Source of the DNA: a virus
Direction: 5' to 3' (one strand)
DNA length: 34,065 bases
Virus record (IMG/VR): IMGVR_UViG_3300045482_000073
Location: 1-34,065 of that record
Shown here: positions 15,405 through 23,569 of the stretch, piece by piece
Layout of the letters: the number at the start of each line of letters is the position of its first letter
Numbering within the stretch: position 1 is the first letter of the stretch
Made by a program: the position numbers and the translations under genes
Notes under the pieces: generated by a model
Told to the model about the DNA's origin: nothing
Seen by the model: the letters and a program-made list of their open reading frames with translations, nothing else
Databases searched by the model: none

Positions 15405-16024
15405 CCGATTTCCCGTTCGAACCCCTCGATATCGCGGCCTGCTACGGCACCGGGGTCACGGCGAATGCGATCCGCTGGGGCACGGCCTCTCTGCTGGCCC
15501 CGCCGCGACTGCGAATCGGACCCTCACACGTCGCCGTGCTGTGCGAGTTCCACGGACGGCAGATCTGGGTGGAGTCGACGACCCTCTGTCCCCATCCCTG
15601 CGTGATCCTGGCCCGGCACATCAACGGCTGTCAGGCCCACTTGCCGGAAATTCGGATTCATGACTACGTCAGCGCCGGGGGACGCGTTGACCTCTATCGT
15701 CTCTCGCCCATCGAGAAGCTCTCCAGAAATGAGAGCGAACTGCTGACGCGAATTCTGGTGCGGCACTTCATCGGTCAGGAAGTGACCTACGACCTCGGTG
15801 GGGCGCTCCTGTCCGGAACGCGGCTCTTCAAGCGGACCCGACTGCTGCCGTCCGCTGATCTCAACGAATTGTTCTGTTCGGAACTCGTGGCCGCCGTCTG
15901 CATGCGGCTGGGGCGGATGAACCGCTCCAACCCAACCCGGTTCAACCCCGCCTGCTTGCTGCGGGAACTTGTCCGCCACGGGACGTTCCAGTTCCACCAC
16001 TCATTCACCAGGGAGACTCTTTGA
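15401..16024 (+). CDS. Permuted NlpC/P60-like (YiiX/DUF830 type) cysteine peptidase or amidase
   Basis: This 207-aa protein matches the circularly permuted NlpC/P60 pattern: an early catalytic His in GPSHVAVL (His43), an acidic residue in WVEST (Glu59), and a late nucleophile Cys in LFCSELVAA (Cys159). Enzymes of this fold cleave peptide or amide bonds, often in peptidoglycan or in lipids and small molecules. It could be the phage endolysin or a tail-associated cell-wall enzyme. No signal peptide is visible. The neighbouring single-pass membrane protein and the membrane protease-thioredoxin overlap it at both ends (ATGA, TTGA), so the three are translated together and may act together at the envelope. 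Confidence 0.8.
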   Translation: MTDFPFEPLDIAACYGTGVTANAIRWGTASLLAPPRLRIGPSHVAVLCEFHGRQIWVESTTLCPHPCVILARHINGCQAHLPEIRIHDYVSAGGRVDLYRLSPIEKLSRNESELLTRILVRHFIGQEVTYDLGGALLSGTRLFKRTRLLPSADLNELFCSELVAAVCMRLGRMNRSNPTRFNPACLLRELVRHGTFQFHHSFTRETL

Positions 16025-17532
16025 TCGACTTTCTCCTCACCGCGCTGTTCTTCGCCTACGGACTCTGTCTGCTGCTGGCAATCCTGATCCCGCTCTGGAA
16101 CCGGTTTCTCGTGATTCCGTTCGTGCTGGCGATCGCCAGCGCGGCCTCAGCCGGAGTCCCGGAGTCGGTGGTCCTGGTCGGCGACTGCTCCGGCGTCTGC
16201 GTCGATCCGACGGGACTCGTGCTGACCGTCAAGCACTGCGACCTGCCGCCGGTGACGGTGGTCCGATTCCAGGACCGGACGGTCAGCGCTCGGCGGGTCT
16301 ATGTGTGCCCCGAAACGGAAGGCCCGGTCGTCTTCGACTGCGATGGCGAGGGCTTTCCGTTCGCCCGACTGGCTCAGGCGATCCCGCCCAATGGCGAGAA
16401 GGTCTGGTCGGCCGGGTATCCCGATGCGGCGGGTCGTCGTGAGCTTCGCTGGGCGTCGGGGCCGATCCTGGGCGGCAGCCAGTTCCGGTATCGGGACGGA
16501 ACCTTCCGAGGGAACGTCGTCGCATTCTCGACCGGACCGGGCTGGAGCGGCGGGCCGCTCTTCAATCCGCAAGGCGAGGTCTGCGGACTGCTCAACAGCA
16601 GTGATGGCTGCACGAGTGTGTTCGTATCCTACGCGGCGACACAAGAGGCCTATGTCGCCTGCCGCAATCGCCCCGCCAAGAAACCGACGCTGTATGTGTT
16701 CGGCTCGGTCCACTGCGGACCCTGCCTGAGGTTCAAGCAGCATTACGCCGAGCGGACTGCGCTGCGCCAACGGCTTGATGCTCAGTTCACAGTCGTGTTC
16801 GTCGACATCGACGTCCATCCCGGCACGGCGGACCAATTCGGGATCAAGGAAGTCCCCGCGTTCGTCGTCCCTGGCGAACCAGCCATCACCGGCTACACCG
16901 AGCCGGATGTGCTGCTCGGCAAACTGGGCGTCGTCGAGGAGCCAGCAACGCAGGCCACGGTGCCGACACCGCCGCTGGCCACGCCCCTGACGGAGCCGGT
17001 CCGCGAACCGGAGCAAACACCAGCGCCGCCACCCGCGCAAACCGTTACGGTCGAGAAGCCGCCGCCGGTCGCACCAAGCGTCACGCCAGCGGTCGGGGAA
17101 CCGGACCGTTCGGTCGCTGACCGGCTTGATCGCCTGAGCGGCCTGGTCCAGACCGGCGTTTCGATTGCGACCTGGCTGGGTGTCGGCGGCCTCACGGGTG
17201 GGGCCGGAGGGCTGGTCCTCGGCGGATTGGCCCTCTGGCGCACGTTGCGGCGACGTCGAGAAGCAAAAGCCGCCAGAGATTCCCCGGTGATCGCCACTCC
17301 GTCGACGCCCCGCGCACCACCGGTGGTCACGGTCGATAGTCCCCCGCCGCCACAAGCGATCGTCCCGGAAACCCGCTTCGCTCCATATGAGCGGGACACA
17401 TTTGCCGAAGCGTTCGCTTGGGCCGAGACGGAATTGGTCCGCAAGTACCCCGGCGCGGTCTCGACGCTCGAGACCCTCAAGGGGCTGATCAACCAGTTCC
17501 TGTCGGCCAAGGGCCTGAAGCCTAAGCCGTAG
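16021..17532 (+). CDS. Membrane-anchored trypsin-like protease fused to a thioredoxin domain
   Basis: This 503-aa protein starts with two hydrophobic segments (about residues 4-24 and 29-45, the second possibly a signal). A trypsin-fold domain follows at about 48-215: catalytic His in LTVKHC (His72), likely Asp in VVFDCDGEG (106 or 108) and Ser in GPGWSGGPLF (Ser176). A thioredoxin domain (about 220-305) has the redox centre HCGPC (231-235) and the cis-Pro loop EVPAF (277-281). A Pro/Thr linker, another membrane segment (about 381-406) and a basic, Pro-rich tail with a final helix complete it. It probably acts outside the membrane on disulfide-containing proteins. The TTG start overlaps the previous stop. 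Such a fusion inside a phage late operon is unusual. Confidence 0.85.
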   Translation: MIDFLLTALFFAYGLCLLLAILIPLWNRFLVIPFVLAIASAASAGVPESVVLVGDCSGVCVDPTGLVLTVKHCDLPPVTVVRFQDRTVSARRVYVCPETEGPVVFDCDGEGFPFARLAQAIPPNGEKVWSAGYPDAAGRRELRWASGPILGGSQFRYRDGTFRGNVVAFSTGPGWSGGPLFNPQGEVCGLLNSSDGCTSVFVSYAATQEAYVACRNRPAKKPTLYVFGSVHCGPCLRFKQHYAERTALRQRLDAQFTVVFVDIDVHPGTADQFGIKEVPAFVVPGEPAITGYTEPDVLLGKLGVVEEPATQATVPTPPLATPLTEPVREPEQTPAPPPAQTVTVEKPPPVAPSVTPAVGEPDRSVADRLDRLSGLVQTGVSIATWLGVGGLTGGAGGLVLGGLALWRTLRRRREAKAARDSPVIATPSTPRAPPVVTVDSPPPPQAIVPETRFAPYERDTFAEAFAWAETELVRKYPGAVSTLETLKGLINQFLSAKGLKPKP

Positions 17533-17580: not shown

Positions 17581-18375
17581 ATGTCCGGAAACGACGCCTT
17601 CCTCTGGTACAACGTCGGTGATTGGGGCCGGTTCGGCCTCGCGATTCCCAACTTCTCCAACGACACCAAGTCGCAGAACGACACGATCCGCTATCTGACC
17701 GACGTGGTCGGGCGGAACCTGCAGGCGATCCTGTGGCATCCTGATGCCCGGCTGCGGACGCCCCCGTCGATCAACACGCTGACCCGCATCCACAAGCTCT
17801 GCACGCGGGCGCGGTCGATTCTCGCGTCGCGGGCGGTGCCGGCCAACATCCTCAACATGGAGACGGCCCACGCGCTCCCGGCTCCCGAGGAGTTCCTGGT
17901 CTACCCCACGCCCTACTTCATGGTGCGGAATCAGTGGCTCAAGCAGTACGCCGGGCTGATGCTGCTGGCGCTGACCGAAGCGATGCAGCACCAGGAAAAC
18001 GCCCGGCCGCTGGAGATTAGCGAGGCGTTCGCGGGACTGATCGGCCAGTATGTCCAGCGGGTCTACCGGCTCGTGGCCACGGAACTGTTCCGCGTGCCGC
18101 TCGCCGATGCCGCGAAACCGGACTTCGCGCTGACCGATGCGCAACTGGCGGCCTACAACCCGTCGGCCTGGTTCACGAGCACCGAGATGATCGACACCGT
18201 TGCTCCACTGGATGACTGGCCGACCGAGGACGACCTCGAAGTCCTGACCAACGGCATCCCGATCAGCCATCTGCCGGTCCTCGGCCGCTGGCCGTCGGGA
18301 CCGAGTGGCTCGGTCGGTTCCAGCCAGTCGAATGTTCCTGCGAGCGAATCGTTCGCACGAGCGCCTTCGGCTTAG
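17581..18375 (+). CDS. Conserved-looking tail-module protein, function unknown
   Basis: This 264-aa, mostly helical protein opens with NDAFLWYNVGDWGRFGL and has a central aromatic YPTPYFMVRNQWLKQYAG stretch. No family is recognised. Its place before the tail tube suggests a structural or assembly role. The last 30 or so residues are Gly/Ser/Ala-rich and look different from the body. They are encoded partly by a palindrome (18339-18357), and the TAG stop itself is the first three bases of an inverted-repeat arm, so insertion of that element may have reshaped the C-terminus. A GAAAG box precedes ATG 17581. Confidence 0.7.
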   Translation: MSGNDAFLWYNVGDWGRFGLAIPNFSNDTKSQNDTIRYLTDVVGRNLQAILWHPDARLRTPPSINTLTRIHKLCTRARSILASRAVPANILNMETAHALPAPEEFLVYPTPYFMVRNQWLKQYAGLMLLALTEAMQHQENARPLEISEAFAGLIGQYVQRVYRLVATELFRVPLADAAKPDFALTDAQLAAYNPSAWFTSTEMIDTVAPLDDWPTEDDLEVLTNGIPISHLPVLGRWPSGPSGSVGSSQSNVPASESFARAPSA

Positions 18376-18404
18376 GCTGAAGACTGGAGGCTGAAGACTG
18401 AAGG
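18373..18404. repeat. Left arm of the cassette (heptad repeats)
   Basis: After TA, the arm consists of 7-bp units GGCTGAA, GACTGGA, GGCTGAA, GACTGAA and a final GG. It pairs with 18776-18807. Confidence 0.8.
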
Positions 18405-18406
18405 TG

Positions 18407-18766
18407 TCACGCGCGGTCCCGCAACGAGCGGATGAGGCCGTTGAGTACCTTCGATGTCTCGATGGCGTGAGCCTCCAGCTTCTTGAACGCCTCGTCCGTC
18501 AGGTATCCGAGGCGGACTGCGATTGATGCCTGGTAGGCCAATTCCCGCGAGGAACCGTAGGCCATGTCCAGGAATCGCAGGTACTCCGCCTCGGATGCTC
18601 TCGCGGAGCCCTCGACGATGTTGGACGCAATCGACACCGAAGCACGTCGCATCTGGTTGGTCAGACCAAACTGTTCATGCGACGGAAACGATGTCGTGGA
18701 CCGGTAGGTCAACAGCACGAGTTGATCGGCCAGTTCGAACGCCCTGAGTTTCGTGTGATCTCGCAT
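18407..18766 (-). CDS. Four-helix-bundle protein (23S rRNA intervening-sequence protein family)
   Basis: This 119-aa leftward gene has the full family pattern: an opening helix with LRAFELADQLVLLTYR, the signature FGLTNQMRRASVSIASNIVEG (split here around residues 33-53), and the closing SSRELAYQASIAVRLGYL helix. Relatives are encoded in 23S rRNA intervening sequences and resemble the Avd accessory protein of diversity-generating retroelements; they form positively charged oligomeric bundles that bind nucleic acid (family knowledge). Its ribosome site AAGGAG (plus-strand 18774-18779) straddles the inner end of the right inverted arm. It is the only leftward gene in the tail module, which supports arrival by insertion. 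Confidence 0.9.
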   Translation of the reverse strand: MRDHTKLRAFELADQLVLLTYRSTTSFPSHEQFGLTNQMRRASVSIASNIVEGSARASEAEYLRFLDMAYGSSRELAYQASIAVRLGYLTDEAFKKLEAHAIETSKVLNGLIRSLRDRA

Positions 18767-18775
18767 CGATGTTCT

Positions 18776-18807
18776 CCTTCAGCCTTCAGTCTAAAGCCTT
18801 CAGCCTA
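18776..18807. repeat. Right arm of the cassette (inverted heptad repeats)
   Basis: On the minus strand the arm reads, after TA, GGCTGAA, GGCTTTA, GACTGAA, GGCTGAA, GG. It overlaps the first base of the tail tube start codon and leaves no obvious Shine-Dalgarno for that gene. Confidence 0.8.
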
Positions 18808-19247
18808 TGTCTGTGAAACTCGGCCTTGATGCCAAGCTCTACCGCAACACGGGCAACTACGCCGCGCCCAACTGGCAGGAGATGAAGAACGTCAAAGATC
18901 TGACGCTCTCCGTCGAAGCGGGCGAGGCCGATGCCACGACGCGCGGCAATGCCGGCTGGAAGGCGACGCTGGCCACGCTCAAGGATGGCTCGATCGAGTT
19001 TGAGATGGTGTGGGACACGGCCGACGCTGGGTTCACGGCGATCCGCACGGCGTTCTTCGGGAATTCGCCGATCGAGTTCGCAGTTCTCGACGGCGACAAG
19101 GCCACGACCGGTACGCAAGGATTGCGGGCGTCGATGGCGATCACCAAGTTCAGCCGCAACGAACCGCTGGAAGAAGCGATCACGGTTTCCGTGACGGCGA
19201 AACCGACCTACAGCGACCATGCGCCGGAATGGATGGTGGTGCCGTAG
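18807..19247 (+). CDS. Phage tail tube protein
   Basis: This 146-aa protein has the tail tube pattern: KLGLDAKLYRNTG at the start, a VKDLTLSVEAGEADATTRG block (about residues 29-47), a central SIEFEMVWDTAD strand, and a C-terminal EAITVSVTAKPTY strand. These form the beta-sandwich ring that stacks into the tail tube. It precedes the G/T chaperones and the tape measure, the canonical order. No ribosome site is visible because an inverted-repeat arm abuts the ATG, so translation may depend on coupling or be altered by the insertion. Confidence 0.88.
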   Translation: MSVKLGLDAKLYRNTGNYAAPNWQEMKNVKDLTLSVEAGEADATTRGNAGWKATLATLKDGSIEFEMVWDTADAGFTAIRTAFFGNSPIEFAVLDGDKATTGTQGLRASMAITKFSRNEPLEEAITVSVTAKPTYSDHAPEWMVVP

Positions 19248-19249
19248 GC

Positions 19250-19284
19250 CAGTCGAGAGGCAAGAGTCCAGAGTCGAGAGCAAG
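19250..19284. repeat. Heptad repeat run between tail tube and chaperone genes
   Basis: Five consecutive 7-bp units read CAGTCGA, GAGGCAA, GAGTCCA, GAGTCGA, GAGCAAG. They occupy most of the 53-bp gap. The period and composition match the arms of the four-helix-bundle cassette and the hairpin at 22882-22957, suggesting one repeat family. Confidence 0.65.
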
Positions 19285-22071: not shown

Positions 22072-22869
22072 ATGAGCGTCACCGTCACCGAGAAATGGGA
22101 ATCGCGCGAGCAGTCGGCCGGGGAGCAGCCCTCGGTCGATCTGCGGTTCCTGGTCGTCGGGACAGCGGATGACATCAGTGCGCACAGCGAACTGATCGCC
22201 CAGACGCCAACGACCTACAACGGTCTCGTCCGGCAGTCGACGCACCTCGAACGCATCGCCGAGGAAGCCTGGGAAGGTTCGGTCCGGTACGGTCCCTATG
22301 AACCGCCCCAGACCGGGGACTCGTCGTTCTCGTTCGACACCGGCGGTGGCACGCAGCACATCACGCAGTCGCTGGGGACGGTCGGCGCGTGGGGCGCGGC
22401 GGGCATCTTTCCTCCCAACTTCCACGGGGCGATCGGAGCGACGCAAGACAGCATTGAAGGCGTGGACATCACCGTCCCGATCTACAACTTCAGCGAGACG
22501 CACTACATCGATCCGATCTTTGTGACCGGAGCCTACAAGGCGGCGCTGTTCTATCTGACGGGGACCGTCAATAACGGCGGCTTCCGGGGCTTCGCCGCCG
22601 GTGAAGTCCTGTTCCTCGGTGCGGCGGGTTCAGTGCGAGGACAAGAGCACTGGGAGATCACCTATCGTTTCGCGGCGAGTCCCAACGTCGTCGGGCTGTC
22701 GGTCGGATCGATTGGCGGCATCGCCAAACGAGGCTGGGATTACCTGTGGGTCCGCTACGCCGACGTTGAGGACTCGGCCGCCAAGATGCTGGTGAAGCGT
22801 CCGCTGGCGGTCTATGTCGAACAGGTCTACCCCTTCACCAACTTCTTCGGACTGGGGATCGGAACGTGA
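22072..22869 (+). CDS. Probable distal tail / baseplate protein
   Basis: This 265-aa beta-rich protein follows the tape measure directly (nine-base gap), where siphophages encode distal tail or baseplate-hub proteins. Visible landmarks are a SFSFDTGGGTQHITQS strand region, several Gly/Phe/Tyr-rich turns and a C-terminal KRGWDYLWVRYAD block followed by VEQVYPF. No named family is recognised. The role is inferred from position and beta composition. Confidence 0.65.
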   Translation: MSVTVTEKWESREQSAGEQPSVDLRFLVVGTADDISAHSELIAQTPTTYNGLVRQSTHLERIAEEAWEGSVRYGPYEPPQTGDSSFSFDTGGGTQHITQSLGTVGAWGAAGIFPPNFHGAIGATQDSIEGVDITVPIYNFSETHYIDPIFVTGAYKAALFYLTGTVNNGGFRGFAAGEVLFLGAAGSVRGQEHWEITYRFAASPNVVGLSVGSIGGIAKRGWDYLWVRYADVEDSAAKMLVKRPLAVYVEQVYPFTNFFGLGIGT

Positions 22870-22881
22870 CGAAAGGCTGAG

Positions 22882-22957
22882 GGTCGAGAGTTGAGAGTTG
22901 AGGGCCGGATTCTCTGCTTTCTTCTGACTCTCCACCCTCAACCCTCAACTCTCAACC
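22882..22957. repeat. Heptad-repeat hairpin between tail genes
   Basis: Left arm 22882-22904 and right arm 22935-22957 are inverted and match at 21 of 23 positions with a 30-base loop. The left arm reads GGTCGA then GAGTTGA units. The hairpin fills the gap between two tail genes. It has no T-run directly after it and so is not a classical terminator, although it might cause partial termination or RNA processing. It resembles the cassette at 18373-18807 without a gene inside. Confidence 0.75.
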
Positions 22958-22963
22958 ACTGTC

Positions 22964-23569
22964 ATGGGCGACCCACTCCAGAAAGTCCAGCGTGGTGAGC
23001 GGCTCCGCATTCCGGCGGAGACGTTTAACACGTTCATCGACGCCGCCAAGGACTTTCGGCAGCGAACCCAGAATCGCGGCCAATCGTCATTGGCCAACTT
23101 CGCCGACTCCGGGATCGTGCTGGTGAAGAACGCCAGCGGCGGAGATCGCGATCGCTACGACGTGCTGGGCATCGAACGCCCGATCTTTCTGCCATCGGAG
23201 AACCTGCTCAGCTTCACGAACCAACTGGCCGTCGTCGGTGTGACGCCTGACGAAGACAAGCATGTCGGGCGGTTCATCGTCCTGCTGGAACCGCTTAAGA
23301 ACGGACTCATCGGTCGTGGGCTGATCAGCGGGATCACGCCCGTGCGGCTCAATGTGCTTGATCCCGAACACGAGTGGGCCGACATCGAGGACGGGGAAGC
23401 CGACAGCCTCAAGACCGACACGGCCGGGAGTGCGTTCATCCTGTGGCGCGACGGGCCGGGGAGTGGTTACGGCGGCTACGGCTACGGGTATAGCTACTAC
23501 GGCAGCCCGTCGTGGGGACTGGTGCGGATTGGAAACCTGAGCGATGGGGACCAATGGGGGAGTGTGTAG
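22964..23569 (+). CDS. Tail-tip / structural protein with a Gly-Tyr-rich segment
   Basis: This 201-aa protein begins GDPLQKVQRGERLRIPAETF, followed by strands with DSGIVLVKN and FIVLLEPLKNGLIG. Near the C-terminus lies a Gly/Tyr/Ser run (GSGYGGYGYGYSYYGSPSWG), flexible and tyrosine-rich. No family is recognised. Placement after the probable baseplate gene suggests a tail-tip component. Because the next genes are modification enzymes beginning only three bases after this stop, its tyrosines and serines are possible modification targets (speculative). Confidence 0.65.
   Translation: MGDPLQKVQRGERLRIPAETFNTFIDAAKDFRQRTQNRGQSSLANFADSGIVLVKNASGGDRDRYDVLGIERPIFLPSENLLSFTNQLAVVGVTPDEDKHVGRFIVLLEPLKNGLIGRGLISGITPVRLNVLDPEHEWADIEDGEADSLKTDTAGSAFILWRDGPGSGYGGYGYGYSYYGSPSWGLVRIGNLSDGDQWGSV

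Follow-up and report, generated by a model that had tools for sequence, protein, structure and literature searches.

A heptamer-armed IVP cassette in a phage structural operon as a probable member of a family of small mobile DNA elements

Between two genes of a phage structural operon lies a 435-nt cassette that carries one small gene inside mirror-image arms of 7-base repeats (positions 18373-18807 of the window, i.e., the whole stretch of 34,065 nucleotides analyzed here). Cassettes of this kind form a family whose members move as discrete pieces of DNA bounded by inverted ends. We read the cassette as a small transposable element that moves as DNA, has MITE-like derivatives and may rely on a new mobility factor, and estimate a probability of about 0.7 that it represents a small mobile DNA element consisting of inverted tandem-heptamer arms around one IVP (S23-type, Avd-like) gene. 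What the IVP/S23 protein does and where the rRNA intervening sequences (IVSs) come from have been standing questions since the 1990s. Sharp-ended armed cassettes, together with their target duplications and arms-only offspring in phages as well as in bacteria from many phyla, offer a concrete test system outside rRNA, and would explain many intergenic heptamer repeats as the footprints of one element family.

Results

Structure of the cassette

The window, a virus record of 34 kb, encodes TerL, portal, capsid/protease, tail tube and tape measure proteins. The arms of the cassette fill the entire gap separating the two neighboring genes, and read on the strand of the enclosed gene the layout is 32 nt of arm, 9 nt, an ORF of 360 nt, 2 nt and again 32 nt of arm. 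Each arm consists of about four heptamers with the units AGGCTGA/AGACTGR and variants (in the left arm, after a leading T, AGGCTGA AGACTGG AGGCTGA AGACTGA AGG). Re-measurement of the arms and the family matches given below confirmed the first-pass annotation, which had described 32-bp inverted heptamer arms with 27/32 matches around a leftward gene of the 23S IVP family. Across the window, no other inverted pair of 32-mers with at least 25/32 matches, spaced within 3 kb, was found. An Rfam search gave no match in the window, nor in 16 of the other loci.

As had also been proposed, the right arm ends on the A of the downstream ATG. The left arm had been taken to supply the TAG of the upstream gene; the stop codon is placed alike in relatives without the cassette, and L017 uses TAG too, which is consistent with either origin. 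The description of the site as lying between two tail genes held for the downstream gene, which matches tail tube profiles, and did not extend to the upstream gene, for which no match was found in Pfam or PHROG. Just in front of the upstream gene, a phage gene at 16021-17532 combines trypsin-like protease and thioredoxin-like domains in a single frame.

Table 1. Positions of the cassette, its neighboring genes and further heptamer tracts in the window.
Feature	Position	Strand	Basis or remark
Upstream gene, 264 aa, no family	17581..18375	+	stop position kept in relatives with other gap occupants
Left inverted arm (3' arm on the gene's strand)	18373..18404		27/32 complementary to right arm
IVP/S23 four-helix-bundle gene, 119 aa	18407..18766	-	profiles, structure
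Shine-Dalgarno-like AAGGAG, overlapping inner end of 5' arm	18774..18779	-	sequence
Right inverted arm (5' arm on the gene's strand)	18776..18807		outer A is the A of the tail tube ATG
Downstream gene, tail tube / major tail protein	18807..19247	+	PF06199 1.5e-7, phrog_1407 5e-15
Single heptamer tract AGTCGAG/AGTCCAG, not inverted	19246..19282		3' of tail tube gene; kept in L016/L328
Second heptamer hairpin, arms-only	22870..22963		arms ~22872-22908 and ~22921-22961

The IVP protein

The IVP gene is the only gene with a family match between the arms, and no RAYT (Y1) transposase is present there. Its product scored well above the respective cut-offs of PF05635 (E 9e-33, 113 bits; curated cut-off 33.8) and TIGR02436 (E 3e-32, 111 bits; cut-off 24), matched PDB 2gsc (8e-22) and was modelled as a four-helix bundle; profile scores and fold together place it within these families. 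The model was alignment-based (pLDDT 96), as a single-sequence model reached a pLDDT of 46. The nearest structures were XCC0516 (2gsc; Z 19.9) and BT_0352 (2rld; Z 18.6), followed by Avd of the DGR reverse transcriptase complex with Z 14-16, values that arise by chance more readily among helical bundles. A weak Avd profile match (phrog_3206, 7e-10) agrees with a kinship of IVP and Avd, and the protein is not itself a DGR Avd by the profile NF033474 (22 bits vs a cut-off of 80). IVP proteins are under purifying selection (dN/dS 0.04-0.39), showing that selection keeps them functional.

Movement of the family

Elements 92-96% identical to each other (L133/L134/L166) were found in unrelated flanks, their similarity ending at GTAACTACTCAGG and CCTGAGTAGTTAC. 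The GTAACTACTCAGG end occurs in tens to about 200 copies per genome in many of these genomes as compared to 0 to 8 copies of reversed controls, one genome having 196 copies with a control of 0. Where GTAACTACTCAGG ends are paired 56-472 bp apart, the space between them holds an IVP gene, either intact or internally deleted, or hardly more than the arms, and among the members of this end family below 700 bp those bearing IVP are the largest. Just outside the paired ends, an 8-bp direct repeat was perfect in 11 of 33 cases and had 7/8 matches in a further four, whereas swapped controls yielded 0/1056, perfect or 7/8. IVP-deleted and arms-only copies also carry such 8-bp target duplications, indicating that only the ends are needed in cis. 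The duplications show that the GTAACTACTCAGG lineage transposes with an 8-bp staggered cut. The earlier suggestion of a mobile element that can live outside rRNA is thus well supported by the near-identical copies in unrelated flanks and by the duplications in one lineage; such copies were found for the family and not for the window copy itself.

When target duplications were sought across the armed elements as a whole, by strict and relaxed measures, no excess appeared beyond the GTAACTACTCAGG lineage, and no duplication was detected for heptamer-only or phage-type elements, including that of the window. No pair of filled and empty alleles was found; at the phage site a nuclease-like gene is replaced, which differs from a plain insertion. 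Likewise, a search of the 46 genomes of the G014 family (including G014) gave no empty site for three target-duplicated insertions, the sites being insufficiently conserved.

Two further groups of dispersed elements were observed. Four genomes (G012, G014, G021, G024; loci L303-L322) harbor GTAACTACTCAGGT miniature elements with at most about 200 end copies per genome and 8-bp target duplications, and the interiors of some of these are neither IVP nor empty (L312, L318). A second PF05635 subfamily accounts for a dispersed repeat in Neorhodopirellula pilleata; its copies, about 610 bp long and 80-98% alike, lie in unrelated flanks, and several are decayed (L220, L222, L223, L224, L225, L227, L229).

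Candidate transposase

IS66 elements have GTAA ends and generate 8-bp target duplications. An IS66 copy in genome G012 has the similar end GTAACTTCTCACG, and the ends together with the duplication size suggest that an IS66-like transposase acts in trans, with the Avd-like protein as an accessory. The window cassette starts with TAGGCTGA and hence lacks the GTAA end of an IS66-type MITE. Matching ends were not found to enclose a transposase. Of the eight genomes searched that possess the ends, most of them MAGs, six lack IS66 genes, and IS66 was rejected as a universal mobilizer on that ground. The existence of a larger autonomous element sharing these ends was also rejected, as a 1.4-kb end pair holds a prfB-like gene (identified by eye) and a 1.8-kb pair turned out to be an IS66 copy with its own ends. 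In L277 (690-2126), matching element ends flank a prfB-like gene, representing either two elements or a composite.

Distribution and arm evolution

Inverted arms were scored at 94 loci, comprising the window, 14 viral loci and 79 loci from bacterial genomes, the latter including Planctomycetota, Verrucomicrobiota, Nitrospirota, Hydrogenedentota, Zixibacteria, Actinomycetota and Bacteroidota as well as MAGs labelled Desulfobacterota and Myxococcota, and others. The median score was 19.5 as compared to 10 with swapped flanks. In a set of 151 PF05635 genes that includes more distant members and spans many phyla, phages and cyanobacterial plasmids, 71% scored at least 15, in contrast to 8% of swapped pairs and 17% in direct orientation, the loci being partly non-independent; the arms are mostly heptameric. 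The combination of arms and IVP family is therefore found widely elsewhere, and the reservation that such arms might never recur with this family does not apply.

At 70-80% IVP identity, the two arms of a locus agreed with each other better than with the arms of relatives (median 17 vs 11 across loci, n = 451 pairs), which shows that arms within a locus evolve in concert and are kept alike. Relatives on cyanobacterial plasmids have the identical layout with other heptamers (GGGTGTA, AGTCAGG, AGCTGTT). Genomes carry up to 25 IVP copies each, with a patchy distribution (48/99 Planctomycetota).

The first-pass annotation had stressed the antisense placement of the gene. This applies to the window phage and to 12 planctomycete loci, some of them orthologous, at which the cassette is flanked by the tRNA genes of an array and is antisense to them throughout (L096, L097, L116, L117, L125, L127, L143, L145, L159, L160, L168, L170). 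It does not apply to Desulfobacterota, where copies are mostly in sense orientation within operons (neighboring genes called by a simple longest-ORF rule), and a general antisense rule was rejected because of the many sense insertions. 23S rRNA near IVP loci was represented by one single-probe hit only, in L144. The exact fit from stop to start codon can be explained by selection for harmless sites in compact, transcribed DNA, and a targeting rule is not needed.

The junction in related phages

The closest relatives at the junction (L016/L328 and L025/L327; tail tube 96-97% and upstream gene 89% identical) have a small nuclease-like gene on the + strand where the window has the cassette. This gene, called SNase-like by eye, occurs at the same junction also in L017/L329, L018/L331 and L333, and is internally deleted in L330, while in L334 and L337 (L043) the gap is near-empty, with about 44 and 26 nt past the stop codon, respectively. 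Among the relatives, an IVP cassette at this junction was found in L038/L332 only. Its protein is 75% identical to that of the window, the heptamer is altered to AGGCTTC/AGGCTCC in both arms of L332, and one arm is expanded to about 27 units (L038/L332). The closest relatives thus lack the IVP gene at this site, contrary to the case considered by the first-pass annotation in which relatives would always carry it there without arms. A tblastn search against 50,697 known phage records gave no match.

In a tree of the flanks, the window clusters with the nuclease phages (support 88/90; 92% identity) and away from L332, so that the IVP phages are separated by nuclease phages, whereas the IVPs of the window and L332 are nearest to each other (SH-aLRT 85). 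This disagreement indicates that the cassette probably arrived at the junction twice or by exchange, and simple inheritance fits poorly. In related phages, the junction serves as a swap site for small accessory genes, the nuclease-like gene being absent from the window. The tail tube gene is duplicated or triplicated in tandem in three related phages (L087, L090, L069).

Arms-only hairpins in phages

The second hairpin of the window fills the gap from the stop of gene 22072-22869 to the ATG of gene 22964-23569. At the homologous junction of relatives, the gap was 15 nt or less in 61/73 (counted from the table of relatives), and a heptamer hairpin was present in 0/73. Across 188 phage loci, hairpins containing IVP measured 433-501 bp and those lacking it 82-162 bp, forming two size classes; shuffled window sequence yielded zero such hairpins. 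In L009, L011 and L015, the short hairpin and the IVP cassette of the same phage have a common heptamer, while in the window the two differ. The single heptamer tract 3' of the tail tube gene is perhaps a solo arm.

Discussion

Our preferred reading would work as follows. The element would be mobilized at the DNA level by a trans-acting transposase, in Desulfobacterota plausibly an IS66-like one, while an IVP oligomer may bind the paired arms, as a DNA hairpin or as RNA, and recruit or protect. Slippage within an arm combined with template switching between arms might maintain their likeness. In the window phage, the cassette would have come to lie at a junction between genes of the tail operon, a place where neither gene need suffer, and an arms-only derivative of the element would sit at another junction.

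The same data can be read with the IVP having no part in movement, i.e., with MITE- or REPIN-like hairpins moved by an independent transposase and IVP as captured cargo that brings a benefit of its own, e.g., RNA binding or regulation. The target duplications on arms-only and IVP-deleted copies are in line with this, as are the resemblance of ends and duplication length to the IS66 copy with GTAACTTCTCACG in one genome. However, the same gene is found in such arms across many phyla although the heptamers differ, and the IVP-bearing members are the largest of the end family under 700 bp, which speaks for an enduring partnership; we give this explanation somewhat less than even odds. A wider proposal gives IVP the leading part: a transposable class in which the four-helix-bundle IVP oligomer is the mobility factor that recognizes the arms and recruits a shared transposase or reverse transcriptase, the heptamer arms co-evolve with IVP, arms-only hairpins in phage and host are non-autonomous offspring, and rRNA IVSs are landed copies. 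We hold it tentatively and regard it as less likely than not. A mobility role for the IVS ORF has been voiced before (Ralph and McClelland, 1993, cited in PMC4990558).

An element acting at the RNA level, as in rRNA IVSs, would have its paired arms cut from the transcript by RNase III without religation and would spread by reverse transcription aided by the Avd-like protein. The Coxiella 23S IVS, which is excised by RNase III (PMC4990558), encodes the same protein family and has similar dimensions (428-444 nt and a 28-bp stem vs 435 nt and 32 bp here). The strong predicted fold of the cassette (z -6.9, arms as outer stem), the placement of cassettes in transcribed units, among them tRNA arrays, and the structural kinship of IVP to Avd point in the same direction. 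Against this, 8-bp target duplications and terminal inverted repeats typify DNA transposition, cassettes occur in both orientations, and no reverse transcriptase family was found among the window genes scanned. RNA-level selection should moreover result in a G-U asymmetry of the arm mismatches, but the strand bias was not significant (125 vs 101, p = 0.13). We consider this explanation unlikely; RNA excision might possibly occur in parallel, by analogy to rRNA IVSs. Finally, the cassette could be an ordinary accessory gene that occupies a variable phage junction and whose arms are slipped tandem repeats acting as attenuator or terminator, since slippage expands heptamer arrays, as in L038, and junction occupancy varies among relatives. 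Slippage, however, cannot explain the inverted agreement of arms 370 bp apart, and dispersed near-identical copies and arms-only hairpins at other junctions would be left unexplained. The target duplications refute this explanation for the family; for the window copy alone it could still hold, and overall we rate it as very improbable.

The pieces that the mobile-element reading brings together are already known separately, namely rRNA IVSs with an ORF (PMC4990558), REPINs (PMC3116915) and heptamer repeats (PMC4679880); in the open-access literature we found no description of heptamer-armed IVP cassettes and no paper joining these pieces. Like the 23S rRNA IVSs with S23p/IVP ORF of Coxiella and Leptospira, the cassette has one PF05635 gene, a size within about 430-445 nt and complementary ends of about 28-32 bp around it, 27/32 matching in the window. 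Unlike IVSs, which occupy helix 9, 25 or 45 of the 23S rRNA, it lies in a phage structural operon; its family is further set apart by heptamer arms, by target duplications and by the existence of short derivatives. As in REPIN/RAYT systems, arms-only hairpins accompany a larger one-gene element with the same arms, and copies per genome are numerous. Those systems differ by their Y1 transposase and by REP palindromes instead of tandem heptamers, the 8-bp duplication of one lineage being a further difference. GTAA ends and the 8-bp duplication are shared with IS66-family MITEs in the Desulfobacterota-type relatives only, and an intact conserved IVP gene, heptamer arms and the lack of an IS66 gene in several end-bearing genomes set the cassettes apart. 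The likeness to DGR Avd comprises the fold (Z 14-16) and the weak match to phrog_3206, but the protein falls below the NCBIfam and Pfam bAvd cut-offs, and the genes scanned include no reverse transcriptase.

A term search of the TAACTGA paper (PMC4679880) gave no mention of the IVP protein. The intergenic 7-nt tandem units of cyanobacterial heptameric STRR and of the Beggiatoaceae TAACTGA repeats resemble the cassette heptamers, which in contrast occur in inverted pairs around an IVP gene. On a plasmid of Pseudanabaena galeata (L177), a heptamer-flanked IVP gene lies between cas6 and cas4, and very long AAAAGCT arrays are present.
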